A stretch of DNA of 64,000 nucleotides, taken from IMG/VR virus record IMGVR_UViG_3300032050_000072, positions 19,618-83,617 of that record. One strand, given 5' to 3'. Made by a program: the position numbers and the translations under genes. Of this stretch, positions 5,292 through 55,761 are shown one piece after another. Numbering within the stretch: the stretch's first letter is position 1; each line of letters opens with the position of its first letter. The notes below the pieces were generated by a model. The model saw only the letters and a program-made list of their open reading frames with translations, did not search any database and was not told where the DNA came from. The DNA comes from a virus.

Positions 5292-5320
5292 AGTATATCG
5301 TCACGCTAGACCAATGTCAA
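5292..5320 (-). promoter_or_regulatory. Family promoter a (TTGACA-N17-TATACT)
   Basis: Perfect -35, 17-bp spacer and TATACT -10. The spacer carries the inverted repeat in the form TAGC-N5-GATA (one mismatch). It drives the 70-residue gene about 45 bases downstream. Confidence 0.85.
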
Positions 5321-8564: not shown

Positions 8565-8593
8565 AATATATCGTCAAGATAGACCTATGTCAA
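8565..8593 (-). promoter_or_regulatory. Family promoter b (TTGACA-N17-TATATT)
   Basis: The spacer holds TATC-TTGAC-GATA, a perfect inverted repeat reaching into the -10 box. Confidence 0.87.
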
Positions 8594-8971: not shown

Positions 8972-9000
8972 AATATATCGTCAAGATAGACCTATGTCAA
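8972..9000 (-). promoter_or_regulatory. Family promoter c (TTGACA-N17-TATATT)
   Basis: Nearly identical to promoter b, with TATC-TTGAC-GATA in the spacer. Confidence 0.87.
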
Positions 9001-9047: not shown

Positions 9048-10565
9048 CTATTTGAGCAAGTCGCTCATTTTCGGCAGGTCGCCAGCGCCAAGCGAAAGAA
9101 CGCCCGGCTCGCGCGTTTCACGGCTCTCAAGATAGGCCCCTGCGTAAGCCACGACATCGACCTGATCGTCATGCGATCCGCGCGGGAATTGCAGCAGTTC
9201 AGCCTCGAAGTCCGACAGCCACGCCGCACCCGATCGGTGGAATACCTTGTGCGATGCGTACCGCGTCAGAACCGCCTCGGATCGCGTGATCTTATCTCTG
9301 GACGCTTTGAGCGCCCGGAACGGCGTGCCGCGAACCTCGCCCGCCTGGATCAAGCCGATACCGGCACCCGTGTCTTCGATCGCCTGGAATGACAACTGCG
9401 GATAGAGCCGCCGCTGGGCAATCATCATCGCATACTGGTCGGGAATCGCCACCCGCTCGCGCCGCATATCGTAGACGAGCAGGTCGTGGTCGGGTGTTCG
9501 TAGAAACGTGCCGACGACCGTGAAGTCGTTTTCCTTGCCGGTCTTCTGGGCCGTGTCGCAGGTCTGGAACCAAGTGCATCGGCTGGCTTCGTATCGCCTT
9601 GAACCGGCATCATCATCGACCACGACGAACTCGACGCCATCGACAAACTCGATTGTGAAGTAGCGGAAGTCCTCCAGCCGGTAGATCGAGCCGGTCAGCG
9701 GGTTTGGTCGCTGCTGCAATTGGCCTGGCGCGTCGAAGCTGAGCCTGATCTTCGACTGATCGACCTTGGCCCTCGGATAAGCCTGCTCCCAGAGTAGTTC
9801 GCCATCGGTCGTGCGCGGATCGGTCCATCCGAGCGATGTCGGCTCCATGCGGTTCGGCTCGAACTCCATAGGCAGAATGATCTTCTCGTAGCCGCCCTGC
9901 CGAATAACGTGACCAGCCAGATCGTCTTCGTGGAGCCGCTGCATGACGATCAACCGCCGCACGCCACGGATTTCACCACGCATCGAGATCGTGCCATCCC
10001 ACCACTCGCGAACTCGCTGCCGCTTGAGCGGCGACCGTGAATCTTCGGCCTTGATCGGATCGTCGCAGATCACAAAGTCGGGATGCTCGCCCGTACCGCG
10101 ACCGCCAATGCTCGTCGCCAATCGCCAGCCGCCATCCGTGTTCTGAAAGCGGGTTTCCTTGTTCTGGTTTCTCAACAGCCGCCCGAACCGTTCACAGTAC
10201 CAGTCGCTCTCGATCACGCTGCGGCAGTTATTCGACGCCTTGGTCGACAAGTCCTGAGCATAGCTCGCCACCAGAAACCTTGCAGACGGCCACCACGTCC
10301 AGACCCAGGCCGGAAACAGAATCGAGCAGAGTAGCGTCTTGGTTGTTCCTGGCGGCTGGTTGATGAGCAGGTTGCCAATCTTGCCGCGAGCCATCGCCTC
10401 CAGGTGATCGCAGATCGCCTCGATGTGCCAATTGTCCATGTAGGTCGAATCTTCGACCTGATTCCAGGCCAACTGCACGAAGTCATAGAAACGACCGCAG
10501 CGACGCCGCGACTCGGCAATGACATCACCACGACCCGGCACAAGCGAGCTACGCATTTTCGCCAC
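9048..10565 (-). CDS. terL: Terminase large subunit
   Basis: DNA-packaging ATPase and nuclease that docks on the portal. 505 residues, usual length. Walker A-like NQPPGTTKT (residues 69-77), Walker B FVICDDP (164-170) and coupling region IVMQRLHEDD (206-215) form the ATPase. The RNase H-like nuclease has D337 in CDTAQ and the acidic HDDQVD near residue 473. The first codon is GTG within the terS stop region; an ATG three codons later is equally possible. terS overlaps it by 17 bases. Confidence 0.95.
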   Translation of the reverse strand: MAKMRSSLVPGRGDVIAESRRRCGRFYDFVQLAWNQVEDSTYMDNWHIEAICDHLEAMARGKIGNLLINQPPGTTKTLLCSILFPAWVWTWWPSARFLVASYAQDLSTKASNNCRSVIESDWYCERFGRLLRNQNKETRFQNTDGGWRLATSIGGRGTGEHPDFVICDDPIKAEDSRSPLKRQRVREWWDGTISMRGEIRGVRRLIVMQRLHEDDLAGHVIRQGGYEKIILPMEFEPNRMEPTSLGWTDPRTTDGELLWEQAYPRAKVDQSKIRLSFDAPGQLQQRPNPLTGSIYRLEDFRYFTIEFVDGVEFVVVDDDAGSRRYEASRCTWFQTCDTAQKTGKENDFTVVGTFLRTPDHDLLVYDMRRERVAIPDQYAMMIAQRRLYPQLSFQAIEDTGAGIGLIQAGEVRGTPFRALKASRDKITRSEAVLTRYASHKVFHRSGAAWLSDFEAELLQFPRGSHDDQVDVVAYAGAYLESRETREPGVLSLGAGDLPKMSDLLK

Positions 10566-11031
10566 CAGCCGTAGGAATCGCTTGCCCGCCGTACTCGCGC
10601 GAGAGCTTGTCGAGCAATGCTAGCTCTTGATTGCTCAGCTTGCTCAAGTCGATCTGTGCCGGTGGCGGCTCGGGCGGCTTCTGCGTGACCTCGACCTTGC
10701 TCTTGCGGCCCCAGCGATCCGGGTGCTTGCGTTCGAGATAGGTCATGCAAGCCTGCCAGCTTTCCTCCATGTGCTGATTGAGCTTGGCGACGACTCGAAC
10801 CTCGGCCTGAGCCTCGGCGTCTTTAACGGCTTGATGAAACTTTCCGTAGACGCTATTCGGCTTTTGCTCGCCGCGCGTCAGCCAGCGGCTTAGCGTTTCA
10901 GCCGGAATCCCGGCGAACTTCGCCGCCACGCAGAGGTAGTTCCCGGCGAGAATAGCCGAGACAATCCTGCTCTGAATCGCTGCTGTGAGTTTCGTCGGCG
11001 CGCCGCCCGGCCCGCCTTTGTAGTTTGCCAT
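10549..11031 (-). CDS. terS: Terminase small subunit-like HTH protein
   Basis: 160 residues, start chosen at the ATG behind GAGGGCATT. The N-terminal half has a helix-turn-helix of the type that recognises phage pac/cos DNA (AAKFAGIPAETLSRWLTRG). A helical region with a conserved MTYLERKHPDRWG segment follows, typical of phage TerS proteins. The Pro-rich linker and C-terminal helix probably contact TerL. Identification rests on the fold pattern and position directly before terL. Confidence 0.85.
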   Translation of the reverse strand: MANYKGGPGGAPTKLTAAIQSRIVSAILAGNYLCVAAKFAGIPAETLSRWLTRGEQKPNSVYGKFHQAVKDAEAQAEVRVVAKLNQHMEESWQACMTYLERKHPDRWGRKSKVEVTQKPPEPPPAQIDLSKLSNQELALLDKLSREYGGQAIPTAGGENA

Positions 11032-11076
11032 AATGCCCTCTTTGATTGTGCTGCCACGCACGAATACAACAGCTAT

Positions 11077-11748
11077 CTAGCCTTCGATCAGCCAGCCAGC
11101 GAAATCGCCAAACCTGAAAACCTCAACGGCGTGCTCGCCGAGAACCTTCGGGTCAATTGGCCTCTGGACGCCAATGAGTGAAATCTCTTTTGCGAGAACC
11201 TCATTGGCTGGAACACCTGATGCGATCTTGCCAGCCAGCGTAAGCCTAGAAAGAACCAGCGACGGATAGCCGCCAGTTGGGTTGCAGCGATCAAATACCA
11301 CGATCACGCCGCCCTTTCGGCAGCGGCATCGCAGCTTGTCCATGAGATCGCGACGCTTGTCGACCGGCACGAACATCAGCGACAGGAATAAGATCGCGAC
11401 ATCAAACGACTGATAATCAAACTTCTCGGCCTGGGCACAAACAAACTCGCCTGGGCCCTCGTATTTAGCCCGCATCGCCTCCGAGTTGTCTACGCCAACC
11501 AGCTTAGCGCCGCGGTCTTCGAGAGTGCCAGCGATCGCCTTGCCGATATTGCCGGTCGAGCAACCGATGTCGTAGACCAAGCCGCCGTCAGGGATATAGT
11601 GCCTTGCCACATGCGACACGACTCCGGTCGTCAAGTCATACCACGGCAACTGCTCGCGAACATGCCTGTCGAACCCGCTAGCGATATCTGCTGTCTTGAA
11701 TGTCCAGTTCCTTGGAATATCGAACCCGACTGCCCCTGCGGTTTCCAT
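11077..11748 (-). CDS. CmoA-like SAM methyltransferase / candidate carboxy-SAM synthase
   Basis: 223 residues from the ATG behind GGAGGACTGAC. The N-terminal segment WTF...FDRHVREQLPWYD, the SAM loop VYDIGCSTG (residues 58-66), VGVDNSEAM (84-92) and the later LFLSLMFVP...KGGVIVVFDR follow the order and wording of CmoA. CmoA makes carboxy-SAM from SAM and prephenate for tRNA wobble uridine modification. No CmoB partner is visible here. Instead it is coupled to an amidotransferase and a cytosine DNA methyltransferase, so a role in DNA modification is inferred. An ordinary methyltransferase is the alternative; the carboxylate-binding residues cannot be confirmed by eye. Confidence 0.75.
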   Translation of the reverse strand: METAGAVGFDIPRNWTFKTADIASGFDRHVREQLPWYDLTTGVVSHVARHYIPDGGLVYDIGCSTGNIGKAIAGTLEDRGAKLVGVDNSEAMRAKYEGPGEFVCAQAEKFDYQSFDVAILFLSLMFVPVDKRRDLMDKLRCRCRKGGVIVVFDRCNPTGGYPSLVLSRLTLAGKIASGVPANEVLAKEISLIGVQRPIDPKVLGEHAVEVFRFGDFAGWLIEG

Positions 11749-11749
11749 G

Positions 11750-13117
11750 TCAGTCCTCCGGTAAGTAGCCAAACCTCTTGCGAAGCTCGGAGTTATAGAA
11801 TTTCGTCGGTGAAGCAATTCGCCTTGCGATCTCGTCGGCGACGCCACTGGCTCCTTGAAATGTGTCTTTTGGTCGATTGATGATCCACTTCGGCAAGATC
11901 GACTCTGCCGCCAGCTTGAGCAGTTTCTTGCCAGGAGGCGACTCCGACTTGGTTAATTGCACAGCCGACTCAACAAGCCTCTGCTCCATGAACGGCAGCC
12001 TGCACTCGACTCCGCCAGCCATGAACGCCTTATTGCACCTGACGAAGTTTCCGCGAGACATTTTGGCTAACTGCTCAAGCCTAAGCCGGATCACGCCGTC
12101 GTCGGTTTCGCGGCTGGCTTGGATGCAGAAGTTTCCGTATCCGCCAAACAACTCATCGGCGGCCTCGCCTGACAGGCAAGCCTTAAACCCCTCTGCTGCA
12201 ATCCTTTTCGCAAGCGGAACGCACAGCACGGCGATCTCTATCTGAGCCTTGGATGGAATCTCGATCGACTCCATCGCTTCGGCAATCCCGCGATCAGTTA
12301 TTCCGACAGGAACTTCAAACAGCTTTACCCCAAGGTCACTACACAAGCGTCTAGCACACAGCAAGTCATTAGAACGCTGATCGAAGCTCGCCGTAAAGGC
12401 TACGACCTCGCGACCAGTTTCAACAGCAAGGCCAAGGATTATGCTGCTATCAAGGCCGCCTGAAATTAAGCAGCAGACGGGAGCGTCGGCGCTAAGTCTC
12501 TTTGCAACACCGTCGCGAAGACGACCAAGCACATCGCCATGAGTACACCGTTCCACGCTGGGCATTGAGTACCACTTGCGCCACTCGCCTGTCGTTAAAT
12601 TGAAAGCGAATCCTGCTGGAACAGATATCGCCTTGACGCCAGCCGGAAACGCCTTTCTTTCCGATGCCCACAGATACCCACCGTTATGCTTTGCCACATA
12701 AACTGGAACCTTGCCGAACGAATCTCGCACTAGCCAGCTATCGCCTTTAGATGGAGTCCACGCGAACGCAAACATGCCGTCGAGCATCGGCAAGCAATCC
12801 ATGCCGTGCCTACCGAGCATTGCCGCCAAGACTTCCGTGTCCCCTGTTGTCGCAAACTTCTCACCAGATTCGGCTAGCATCAGCTTTAGCTCGCGGTGAT
12901 TCCAGATTTCGCCATTGAACGTCAGCGTCGACCCATTTCGCACGAACGGCTGAGACGAAAGCTCGGATAGATCAACCAGCGACAGCCGGACATGGCCATG
13001 CACGAAACCGCCATGATTCCTGACGCCGATCCCATCTGGTCCGCGATGCTTGATTTTCTCAAGCATTAAATGCACAGACGACTCAAGCCCGTTCGTCGCG
13101 CCAGCAATTCCGCACAC
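11750..13117 (-). CDS. Asparagine synthetase-like glutamine amidotransferase
   Basis: 455 residues. The GTG start is fixed by chemistry: it puts Cys at position 2 (MCGIAG), the glutaminase nucleophile. Class II glutaminase motifs are HRGPDG (24-29), FNGEIWN (67-73) and TGDTEV (91-96). The ATP pyrophosphatase half has the PP-loop SGGLDSS (219-225) and SGEAADELFGGY. It should transfer ammonia from glutamine to an adenylated carboxylate. Free aspartate is the family substrate. The position between a CmoA-like enzyme and a C5 methyltransferase suggests a carboxylated base instead (inference). Both active sites look intact. Confidence 0.88.
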   Translation of the reverse strand: MCGIAGATNGLESSVHLMLEKIKHRGPDGIGVRNHGGFVHGHVRLSLVDLSELSSQPFVRNGSTLTFNGEIWNHRELKLMLAESGEKFATTGDTEVLAAMLGRHGMDCLPMLDGMFAFAWTPSKGDSWLVRDSFGKVPVYVAKHNGGYLWASERKAFPAGVKAISVPAGFAFNLTTGEWRKWYSMPSVERCTHGDVLGRLRDGVAKRLSADAPVCCLISGGLDSSIILGLAVETGREVVAFTASFDQRSNDLLCARRLCSDLGVKLFEVPVGITDRGIAEAMESIEIPSKAQIEIAVLCVPLAKRIAAEGFKACLSGEAADELFGGYGNFCIQASRETDDGVIRLRLEQLAKMSRGNFVRCNKAFMAGGVECRLPFMEQRLVESAVQLTKSESPPGKKLLKLAAESILPKWIINRPKDTFQGASGVADEIARRIASPTKFYNSELRKRFGYLPED

Positions 13118-13121
13118 AAAC

Positions 13122-14438
13122 CTACCCCTGTTTGATCTTCGACAAAATCTGATCTCGAATCGCCGCTGCCACATGCGACATCATTACCGGAGGCACGGCA
13201 CGCCCGAGCCGCTCCCATTGCTGGGCGTAGCTACCAGCTAGAATGAAGTCATCTGGAAATCCGCAGATGCGACGAAGCTCTGCAATCGAGAACTTGCGAC
13301 GCTCGGTTGGATGTGTCACGCCAGCAATTGAACCAGCGCCGCCAGCGGCAGTAATTGTTGGGCATGGTCCGTCTTGATCTGGCCGAACAAGCTGAAAGTA
13401 TTTTTCAGACTGACCTCCAGGGCCGATATTGTCCCACTCCTTGCCGATCGCGAAGCGACTGATATCAGCTTCCTTCTCAATGAAAAGCTGAGGCTTCGTG
13501 GTGACGCATGGCGACGGACGATCAGTGACTTCGCCGTGGCTAAAGCTAGGGTCGGGCGATCCGGTGTCGTGAACCGCCTTCAACTTAAATCCAGCGGTGG
13601 CCTCAACGACAGTTTGATGCTTGCCTTTTCCATTCATGCCGTGAGCCATAACGGTTGGCGAAGGATCGTCGGCGCTGTGCTGACTGACACCAAAGCCGGA
13701 CCTCGCACCAGTGTCGGGGTTGATGCCGGACTCGACGCTATTGATCCACGGAAGCGCGTCGCGAATCGAATAGCGATATGGCAACGGCTTCGGGTGAACC
13801 GGGTCAAGTCCGAGGTCGTTTCTAACGCCGACGAAGATCGTCCGCTGCCTCGCCTGCGGAACCCCGAGCCACTGTGCGTCAAGCACCTTGCACGACACGC
13901 GATAGCCGCACGACTTGAGCTTGGCGAGGATTTCTAGAAAGTACCCCTTGGCCGTGCCTTTGACCAATCCAGATACATTTTCAGCCACAAACGTCTTTGG
14001 CTGCAAGCCTTCGAGTAGCCGGGCGAACTCAAAGAACAGGTCGTCGGTTCGCTGCGCCTTGTCGCTATACTTCTTGACCTTGCCCCAGCCCTTTTCTCGC
14101 TTGCCAGCCGTCGAGAAAGACGCGCATGGCGGCGAACCGTCGAGCAGATCAAGTTCGCCTTGCCGGAGCCCTGTGGCATCAAGGATTTCACTGGCCTTGA
14201 CGAGCCTTATATCACGACCATCAAGAATCGTCGTTGCCGACTTATTGGCGGCATAGCTTTCACGCGCTGAGTCGATAAACTCAGAAGCCCAGACCACCTT
14301 GAACCCAGCCATGCGGTAGCCCAGTGAAGACCCGCCGCAGCCAGAGAATGTAGAAGCAACCTTAAAGCCATTCCAAGGCAGGCCAGCGATTTCAGCCATC
14401 GAAGGCACACGGTACGGTGGCTTGTTATCACTTGCCAT
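13122..14438 (-). CDS. DNA C5-cytosine methyltransferase with Arg in motif X
   Basis: 438 residues from the second ATG, eight bases after GGAG. All hallmark motifs are present: I FSGCGG (31-36), IV with catalytic PPC (103-105), VI ENV (153-155), VIII QARQR (195-199), IX RRICGFPDDF, and X. Motif X reads GRAVPP (412-417), where the family almost always has GN(S/A)V, so the SAM-pocket Asn is Arg413. A long recognition region lies between VIII and IX. The downstream genes encode a Cys2 amidotransferase and a CmoA-like enzyme; a ParB-like protein gene lies just upstream. Confidence 0.95.
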   Translation of the reverse strand: MASDNKPPYRVPSMAEIAGLPWNGFKVASTFSGCGGSSLGYRMAGFKVVWASEFIDSARESYAANKSATTILDGRDIRLVKASEILDATGLRQGELDLLDGSPPCASFSTAGKREKGWGKVKKYSDKAQRTDDLFFEFARLLEGLQPKTFVAENVSGLVKGTAKGYFLEILAKLKSCGYRVSCKVLDAQWLGVPQARQRTIFVGVRNDLGLDPVHPKPLPYRYSIRDALPWINSVESGINPDTGARSGFGVSQHSADDPSPTVMAHGMNGKGKHQTVVEATAGFKLKAVHDTGSPDPSFSHGEVTDRPSPCVTTKPQLFIEKEADISRFAIGKEWDNIGPGGQSEKYFQLVRPDQDGPCPTITAAGGAGSIAGVTHPTERRKFSIAELRRICGFPDDFILAGSYAQQWERLGRAVPPVMMSHVAAAIRDQILSKIKQG

Positions 14439-14468
14439 TTTCATTGCTCCATCAAATCAATGTATTGC

Positions 14469-14999
14469 TCAACTAGACTTTCCACTCCACGAGTAGCCGC
14501 ACTTCGGGCAGCGATGGTCTGTGTTGATCGACTCGTCGACCTCTGGAAAATCAACAGGCGACTCGCTGAGTGGCTCCATTGCTGGAATGGCACCGGCCTT
14601 CTCGGCCAAGCTCGTCACGAGTTGCTGCAAACTCTCGTCACTAAACTGGACACTATCGAGCAACTGGGTCAAAGCACCGGCGTCGGAATCGGCCATCGCG
14701 CCAATTGGGTCCATCGTGGCCAGCAGTTTGTTGGCCTCAAATTCGTCGACATCGAGAATCAAAACAGGCACAAGCTCGTCGGCCCTCGACATGACATCGG
14801 CACGCAGGTGTCCGTCAATAATTTCAAGACGACCATCAATCTCACGGGCAATGACGGCGGAAGCCATTCCGATTTCGCCAATCGCGGCAACCAATGCTTC
14901 GCGCTGCCTGATTCCGTGCCTGCGCCAGTTCTTGTCATTTTCGACAAGATCACAAGCTGGAACCATCCTGAGTTCTTTGACTCGATTTTTAATCGACAT
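14469..14999 (-). CDS. ParB/sulfiredoxin-like domain protein with C-terminal zinc-knuckle-like motif
   Basis: 176 residues; GGAG of the RBS overlaps the upstream stop. The N-terminal third has the ParB N-domain pattern (NDKNWRRHG, then EIIDGHLRADVM). Such stand-alone domains often sit beside phage DNA methyltransferase genes, where their role is unclear. The C-terminus HRCPKCGYSW offers one CxxC. There is no HTH, so it is unlikely to be a centromere-binding ParB. Confidence 0.8.
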   Translation of the reverse strand: MSIKNRVKELRMVPACDLVENDKNWRRHGIRQREALVAAIGEIGMASAVIAREIDGRLEIIDGHLRADVMSRADELVPVLILDVDEFEANKLLATMDPIGAMADSDAGALTQLLDSVQFSDESLQQLVTSLAEKAGAIPAMEPLSESPVDFPEVDESINTDHRCPKCGYSWSGKSS

Positions 15000-18080: not shown

Positions 18081-18088
18081 TGGTTCAG

Positions 18089-18161
18089 CGACCCGAGCAG
18101 GATTCGGACCTGCGACCTGCGGTTTAGGAAACCGCCGCTCTATCCGCTGAGCTACCGAGTC
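18089..18161 (-). tRNA. tRNA-Arg (anticodon CCT)
   Basis: Acceptor GACTCGG/TCGGGTC with G73, D-arm GCTC/GAGC, anticodon arm GCGGT-TTCCTAA-ACCGC and T-arm GCAGG-TCCGAAT-CCTGC. The T-loop has C55 where U (pseudouridine) is usual. It reads AGG codons and stands apart from the six-tRNA block. Confidence 0.9.
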
Positions 18162-55732: not shown

Positions 55733-55761
55733 AGTATATCGGCAGGATAGACCTATGTCAA
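55733..55761 (-). promoter_or_regulatory. Family promoter m (TTGACA-N17-TATACT)
   Basis: Spacer has TATC-CTGCC-GATA, identical in that element to promoter d. Confidence 0.87.

Follow-up and report, generated by a model that had tools for sequence, protein, structure and literature searches.

A phage operon probably of the CmoA/CmoX/CmoY kind with a glutaminase-type ligase and 5-carbamoylmethylcytosine as its predicted product

A route to DNA hypermodification that uses a carboxylate, not a hydroxyl, as the handle on cytosine was published in December 2025 for Synechococcus phage S-B43 (Yang et al. 2025, PMC12783734). In this system, CmoA produces carboxy-SAM (Cx-SAM), CmoX uses it to form 5-carboxymethylcytosine (5cxmC) at GC motifs, and CmoY joins glycine to the modified base; the virion DNA of S-B43 carries the glycine amide. 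Resistance of carboxymethylated DNA to HhaI was shown with S-B43 homologues, and E. coli CmoA was able to feed Cx-SAM to SpCmoX, whose Arg350 contacts the carboxylate of Cx-SAM (PMC12783734). The same study listed 5,615 CmoX candidates and reported ParB-domain genes as neighbours. Its second-largest ligase cluster has a glutaminase domain; glutamine-derived ammonia was predicted as the amine there, no soluble enzyme was obtained, and other amines were suspected for other clusters (PMC12783734). An earlier note on the DNA analysed here had proposed that Cx-SAM is made, that cytosine is carboxymethylated and that the carboxylate is then amidated. This chemistry matches the proven phage system and the diagnostic residues agree, the amide step staying a prediction. 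The mechanism is nevertheless not novel, because Yang et al. also describe the glutaminase subtype and point to glutamine as the likely source of its ammonia.

The window, that is, the whole stretch of 64,000 nucleotides that we analysed, covers positions 19,618-83,617 of the 83,617-base viral record IMGVR_UViG_3300032050_000072, and all operon coordinates are window positions (Table 1). Three adjacent genes form a tight operon on the minus strand, in the order CmoX-like gene, asparagine-synthetase-like ligase gene and CmoA-like gene. Their family assignments in the earlier note were confirmed by Pfam and NCBIfam models together with the coordinates. As for the spacing, which had been given as two or four bases, the gap of 4 bases between the CmoX-like and ligase genes stands, while the gap between the ligase and CmoA-like genes is 1 base. 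For the latter gene, the start at 11847 in the list of open reading frames is only a longest-ORF call. The upstream ParB-like protein ends in a zinc-ribbon-like tail (CPKCGYSWSG), and the terminase subunits lie downstream of the operon at 9048-11061. The absence of CmoB was borne out over the whole 83,617-base record, and a nucleotide search returned no close phage relative.

Table 1. Window positions of the operon genes and of the gene upstream.
Feature	Position	Strand	Details
CmoX-like DNA cytosine C5-carboxymethyltransferase (predicted)	13122..14444	-	438-440 aa; ATG at 14444 or 14438
Glutaminase-type CmoY (class II glutamine amidotransferase domain + ATP-dependent amide ligase domain)	11750..13117	-	455 aa; GTG start at 13117
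CmoA-like predicted carboxy-SAM synthase, 'QRP' subfamily	11077..11748	-	223 aa; ATG at 11748
ParB-like gene, upstream of operon	14469..14999	-	PHROG 620, E = 6.6e-14

Several other features of the window were recorded. Six tRNA genes (Trp, Thr, Ser, Ala, Gly, Met) are clustered at 2140-2916, and a separate tRNA-Arg(CCT) lies at 18088-18161. The 14-mer CGCAACAAGTTGCG has 20 exact copies in the window, at sites from 515 to 60956, and 26 in the whole record; the reversed 14-mer has 0 copies, and the expectation is about 0.07 at one mismatch. The motif is imperfectly palindromic; most copies lie on the minus strand, several stand at gene ends, and they resemble dispersed operator (stoperator-like) sites. 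A sigma-70-like promoter, TTGACA-17-TATATT, is repeated on the minus strand in a common 29-base context at 8565-8593, 8972-9000, 5292-5320 and 55733-55761, two of these copies being exact and two having 3 mismatches.

The CmoX-like protein belongs to the DNA_methylase family (PF00145, 1.8e-55 in Pfam). Its best match in the PDB is the CmoX structure 8YF3 (E = 1.4e-68), and the next match follows 45 orders of magnitude later (1.3e-23). An SPPC motif with the nucleophilic cysteine occupies residues 104-107, and this cysteine is present in 136 of 136 relatives. According to the PDB match and the alignment, Arg415 corresponds to Arg350 of SpCmoX, with arginine at this column in 128 of the 136 relatives. 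We examined the linkage of this arginine with CmoA in 80 viral loci, which were picked by CmoX similarity alone and searched for CmoA within 3 kb. A CmoA gene lay no more than 3 kb away for 68 of the 72 CmoX genes of the Arg type, and for none of the eight with asparagine, the residue of ordinary methyltransferases. Among the four exceptions of the Arg type, one has a CmoA gene about 4.8 kb off and three have none in the fetched stretch. The eight Asn-type relatives form one clade on the CmoX tree, and the association therefore represents a single evolutionary contrast, not eight. Overall, comparison at the sequence level supports the window transferase as a member of the CmoX family, with carboxymethyl transfer as its predicted activity. 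In a Staphylococcus phage SPbeta-like locus (L005:4989-6688), a cmoA gene is followed by an HhaI-like methyltransferase that has glycine at the column of the CmoX arginine.

The three-gene neighbourhood, which the earlier note had suggested looking for in other phages, is widespread. After contigs with identical proteins were merged, the order CmoX, glutaminase ligase, CmoA was found in 45 non-identical contigs, usually with ParB upstream; this number includes the window and Streptomyces phage TurkishDelight, and it indicates that the arrangement is not due to chance. In TurkishDelight, whose ligase is likely the protein A0A7T0Q3R0, the gene order is ParB, ParB, CmoX, glutaminase ligase, CmoA. 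About 27 contigs have a short CmoY in place of the glutaminase type, and many have CmoX and CmoA without a ligase, as in Moraxella phage Mcat8; some of these states may reflect a ligase sited elsewhere. About 28 changes of ligase state are counted over the CmoX tree, so that the ligase behaves as an exchangeable module. In the ligase-free contigs, the interval between CmoX and CmoA was also screened for a third ligase; it contained only spurious open reading frames, plus one resembling uracil-DNA glycosylase, identified by eye, in two contigs (L175:7538-8005 and L186:7293-7853). Two further loci with AsnB-like genes came to our attention. A viral contig of 60,657 bases (L124) has two such genes, of which one shares about 39% identity with the window ligase, and no CmoX or CmoA was seen in the stretch fetched from this contig. 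In Achromobacter phage Motura (L007:5001-6281), an AsnB-like gene with the glutaminase cysteine lies among the QueC, transglycosylase and QueE genes of a 7-deazaguanine DNA modification cluster, which suggests another use of the family in amidating DNA bases.

The ligase itself is complete and glutamine-dependent in its architecture, as the earlier note had stated. Both domains were found by Pfam (Asn_synthase, 1.8e-40; GATase_6, 9.4e-29), and translation from the GTG start gives the N-terminus Met-Cys-Gly-Ile. The glutaminase residues Cys2, Arg44, Asn68 and Asp93 are present, as are SGGLDSS, Glu318 and Lys417 in the ligase domain, and both sets are conserved in nearly all of the 46 glutaminase-type relatives. 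On the other hand, the aspartate-site residues of E. coli AsnB are not kept: Thr322, Thr323 and Arg325 (numbered from Met) are changed to Ala, Gln and Glu, and Asp385 to Asn, in at least 95% of the 46 phage relatives, the equivalent of Asp385 in the window ligase being Asn357. Asp385 corresponds to Asp400 of human ASNS, a residue of the pocket computed to receive the amino group of bound inhibitors. The change to asparagine is as expected for a substrate that has no alpha-amino group. These replacements also bear on one alternative, namely an ordinary 5mC methyltransferase that neighbours metabolic genes of unrelated function, such as asparagine synthesis or tRNA cmo5U formation. All three families are indeed broad and include common housekeeping members, but Arg415 stands in place of the methyltransferase asparagine, the record has no CmoB, the AsnB residues are lost in nearly all relatives and the operon is conserved over many viral contigs, all of which makes this alternative highly improbable.

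We compared the glutaminase-type ligases with the short (glycine-type) CmoY proteins and with an outgroup of 25 cellular relatives of the asparagine synthetase family, taken from genome-collection matches of the ligase at about 40% identity or less. The three groups separate cleanly on the tree. Four residues, Lys290, Glu294, Arg346 and Gln421, are each present in 46 of 46 glutaminase-type ligases and in 27, 24, 27 and 27, respectively, of the 27 short CmoY, and none of the 25 cellular relatives has all four together. They may contact DNA or 5cxmC. Common descent of both phage ligase types could also account for these shared residues, so they support the same substrate without proving it. Taken together, the substrate-side changes relative to AsnB and the four CmoY-type residues fit a common 5cxmC substrate and a different amine. 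Both the intact state of the glutaminase domain and the retention of Lys417 favour ammonia as this amine. Lys417 is found in 25 of 25 cellular relatives and in the window ligase, while most short CmoY have histidine instead, and several further alignment columns differ between the two phage types. Addition of glycine or another small amine by the same pathway, which would leave a substituted amide as the final base, has a precedent in the S-B43 CmoY and in the amines suspected for other clusters (PMC12783734); given the complete glutaminase domain with its conserved catalytic residues and the differences from short CmoY just described, we consider it unlikely. The glutaminase-type CmoY would thus amidate 5cxmC with ammonia, and its residues offer predictions as to which phages have the neutral amide.

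The CmoA-like protein is the least typical member of the operon. Domain models place it among the class I methyltransferases. CmoA (TIGR00740, 6.2e-14) is the best of the NCBIfam models, at 52.2 bits against a curated equivalog cut-off of 193.3, and the protein also matches PHROG 4752. The structure comparison proposed in the earlier note agreed with a CmoA fold: the predicted structure (pLDDT 91) has E. coli CmoA (4GEK) as its top Foldseek match with a TM score of 0.81, the true methyltransferases BelI and CysG being nearly level. Most SAM-site residues of E. coli CmoA are kept, and the HHDFK motif is absent. The earlier note had also singled out the carboxylate-binding residues, and here the outcome was mixed. 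Arg199, which in E. coli CmoA binds the Cx-SAM carboxylate through a salt bridge, is replaced by Glu in the window protein and its subfamily, but the proven S-B43 CmoA likewise has Glu at this column, with an arginine four residues further on. The well-supported subfamily, which we call QRP, comprises 116 of 141 aligned sequences and is marked by the motif KELSLxGxQRP and by invariant Arg168 and Arg196, one of which perhaps binds the carboxylate.

A CmoA gene was present in 177 loci, of the QRP type in 154, of the canonical type in 18 and of another type in 5, and none of these loci had two. Similarity to the CmoA of the window partly guided the choice of loci, and the ratio of 154:18 is therefore no population estimate; selection by CmoX alone gave 51 QRP to 17 canonical. 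In this sample, annotation based on Arg199 would miss most CmoA genes. The two types occupy the same place in the operon, and over the CmoX tree one is exchanged for the other 11 times; at least 5 of these swaps are forced by well-supported branches. Since they never co-occur and repeatedly replace one another, both probably supply Cx-SAM, the QRP-type protein being a predicted carboxy-SAM synthase. CmoM methylates a carboxylate like that of 5cxmC on tRNA. The CmoA-like protein might similarly be a methyltransferase, acting for example on the 5cxmC carboxylate, with Cx-SAM coming from the host. The loss of Arg199 and HHDFK, the closeness of BelI and CysG in fold and the ability of E. coli CmoA to serve SpCmoX (PMC12783734) speak for this idea. 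It predicts co-occurrence with canonical CmoA, which was seen in 0 of the 177 loci, and it sits poorly with the repeated swaps; moreover, a methyl ester would deprive the ligase of the free carboxylate that it needs. We judge it quite improbable.

Overall, we consider it likely that the operon is a phage DNA hypermodification system of the CmoA/CmoX/CmoY kind, with a glutaminase-type ligase and 5-carbamoylmethylcytosine as its predicted product. Together, its three enzymes very probably place carboxymethyl groups on cytosine in DNA and then convert these to neutral amides. In the proposed pathway, the CmoA-like enzyme would convert SAM, presumably with prephenate, to Cx-SAM. CmoX, by means of the SPPC cysteine and Arg415, would transfer the carboxymethyl group to C5 of DNA cytosine within a sequence motif. 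The ligase would then adenylate the carboxylate, which would be attacked by ammonia freed from glutamine, and the resulting neutral 5-carbamoylmethylcytosine would block host restriction enzymes. We infer the synthesis of Cx-SAM by the QRP subfamily, the use of ammonia, the final base and the protection against the host. In the literature searched, we found no demonstration of 5-carbamoylmethylcytosine in DNA. On balance, we lean towards the combined view that the DNA carries this base, that Cx-SAM comes from a separate and widespread phage CmoA subfamily binding the carboxylate without Arg199, and that CmoX and CmoA form a conserved core around which the ligase module (glutaminase type, glycine type or none) is exchanged. 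The ammonia step and this CmoA subfamily are the points of remaining interest.

Compared with known systems, the operon shares with S-B43 the three enzyme families, a CmoX with SPPC and the carboxylate-binding arginine, and the four ligase residues. It differs from S-B43 in that the order there is CmoA, CmoY, CmoX, the CmoY has no glutaminase domain and takes glycine as its amine, and the CmoA is about 22% identical. The glutaminase-type cluster of Yang et al. (A0A7T0Q3R0) has the same domain architecture and predicted use of glutamine-derived ammonia. TurkishDelight genes 123-125 agree with the window in gene order, ligase architecture and upstream ParB-like genes, but the ligases are about 35-38% identical and the TurkishDelight CmoA falls outside the QRP subfamily. 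With E. coli CmoA (4GEK, 4IWN), the window protein shares the fold and SAM-site residues such as Tyr39, Asp62, Gly64, Phe137 and Lys198; besides the lost Arg199 and HHDFK, Asp117 and Asn132 differ, and invariant arginines occur at E. coli positions 179 and 207. The ligase has both catalytic domains of E. coli asparagine synthetase B (1CT9) at about 33% identity, but apart from the replaced aspartate-site residues its C-terminus is shorter, and its score of 260.9 bits falls just short of the 267.1 bits set as the equivalog cut-off for AsnB. The engineered carboxymethyltransferase M.MpeI N374K is reported to accept Cx-SAM by means of a basic residue at the site equivalent to the CmoX arginine (PMC12783734); the window enzyme has a natural arginine there. 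The phage Mu Mom protein, which the earlier note had also invoked, is a loose chemical analogy; homology was not seen and is not needed. Apart from proof of the ammonia step, the mechanism is already in print, and the window operon extends this newly described route to a well-defined glutaminase-type operon, as a further example with an unusual first enzyme.
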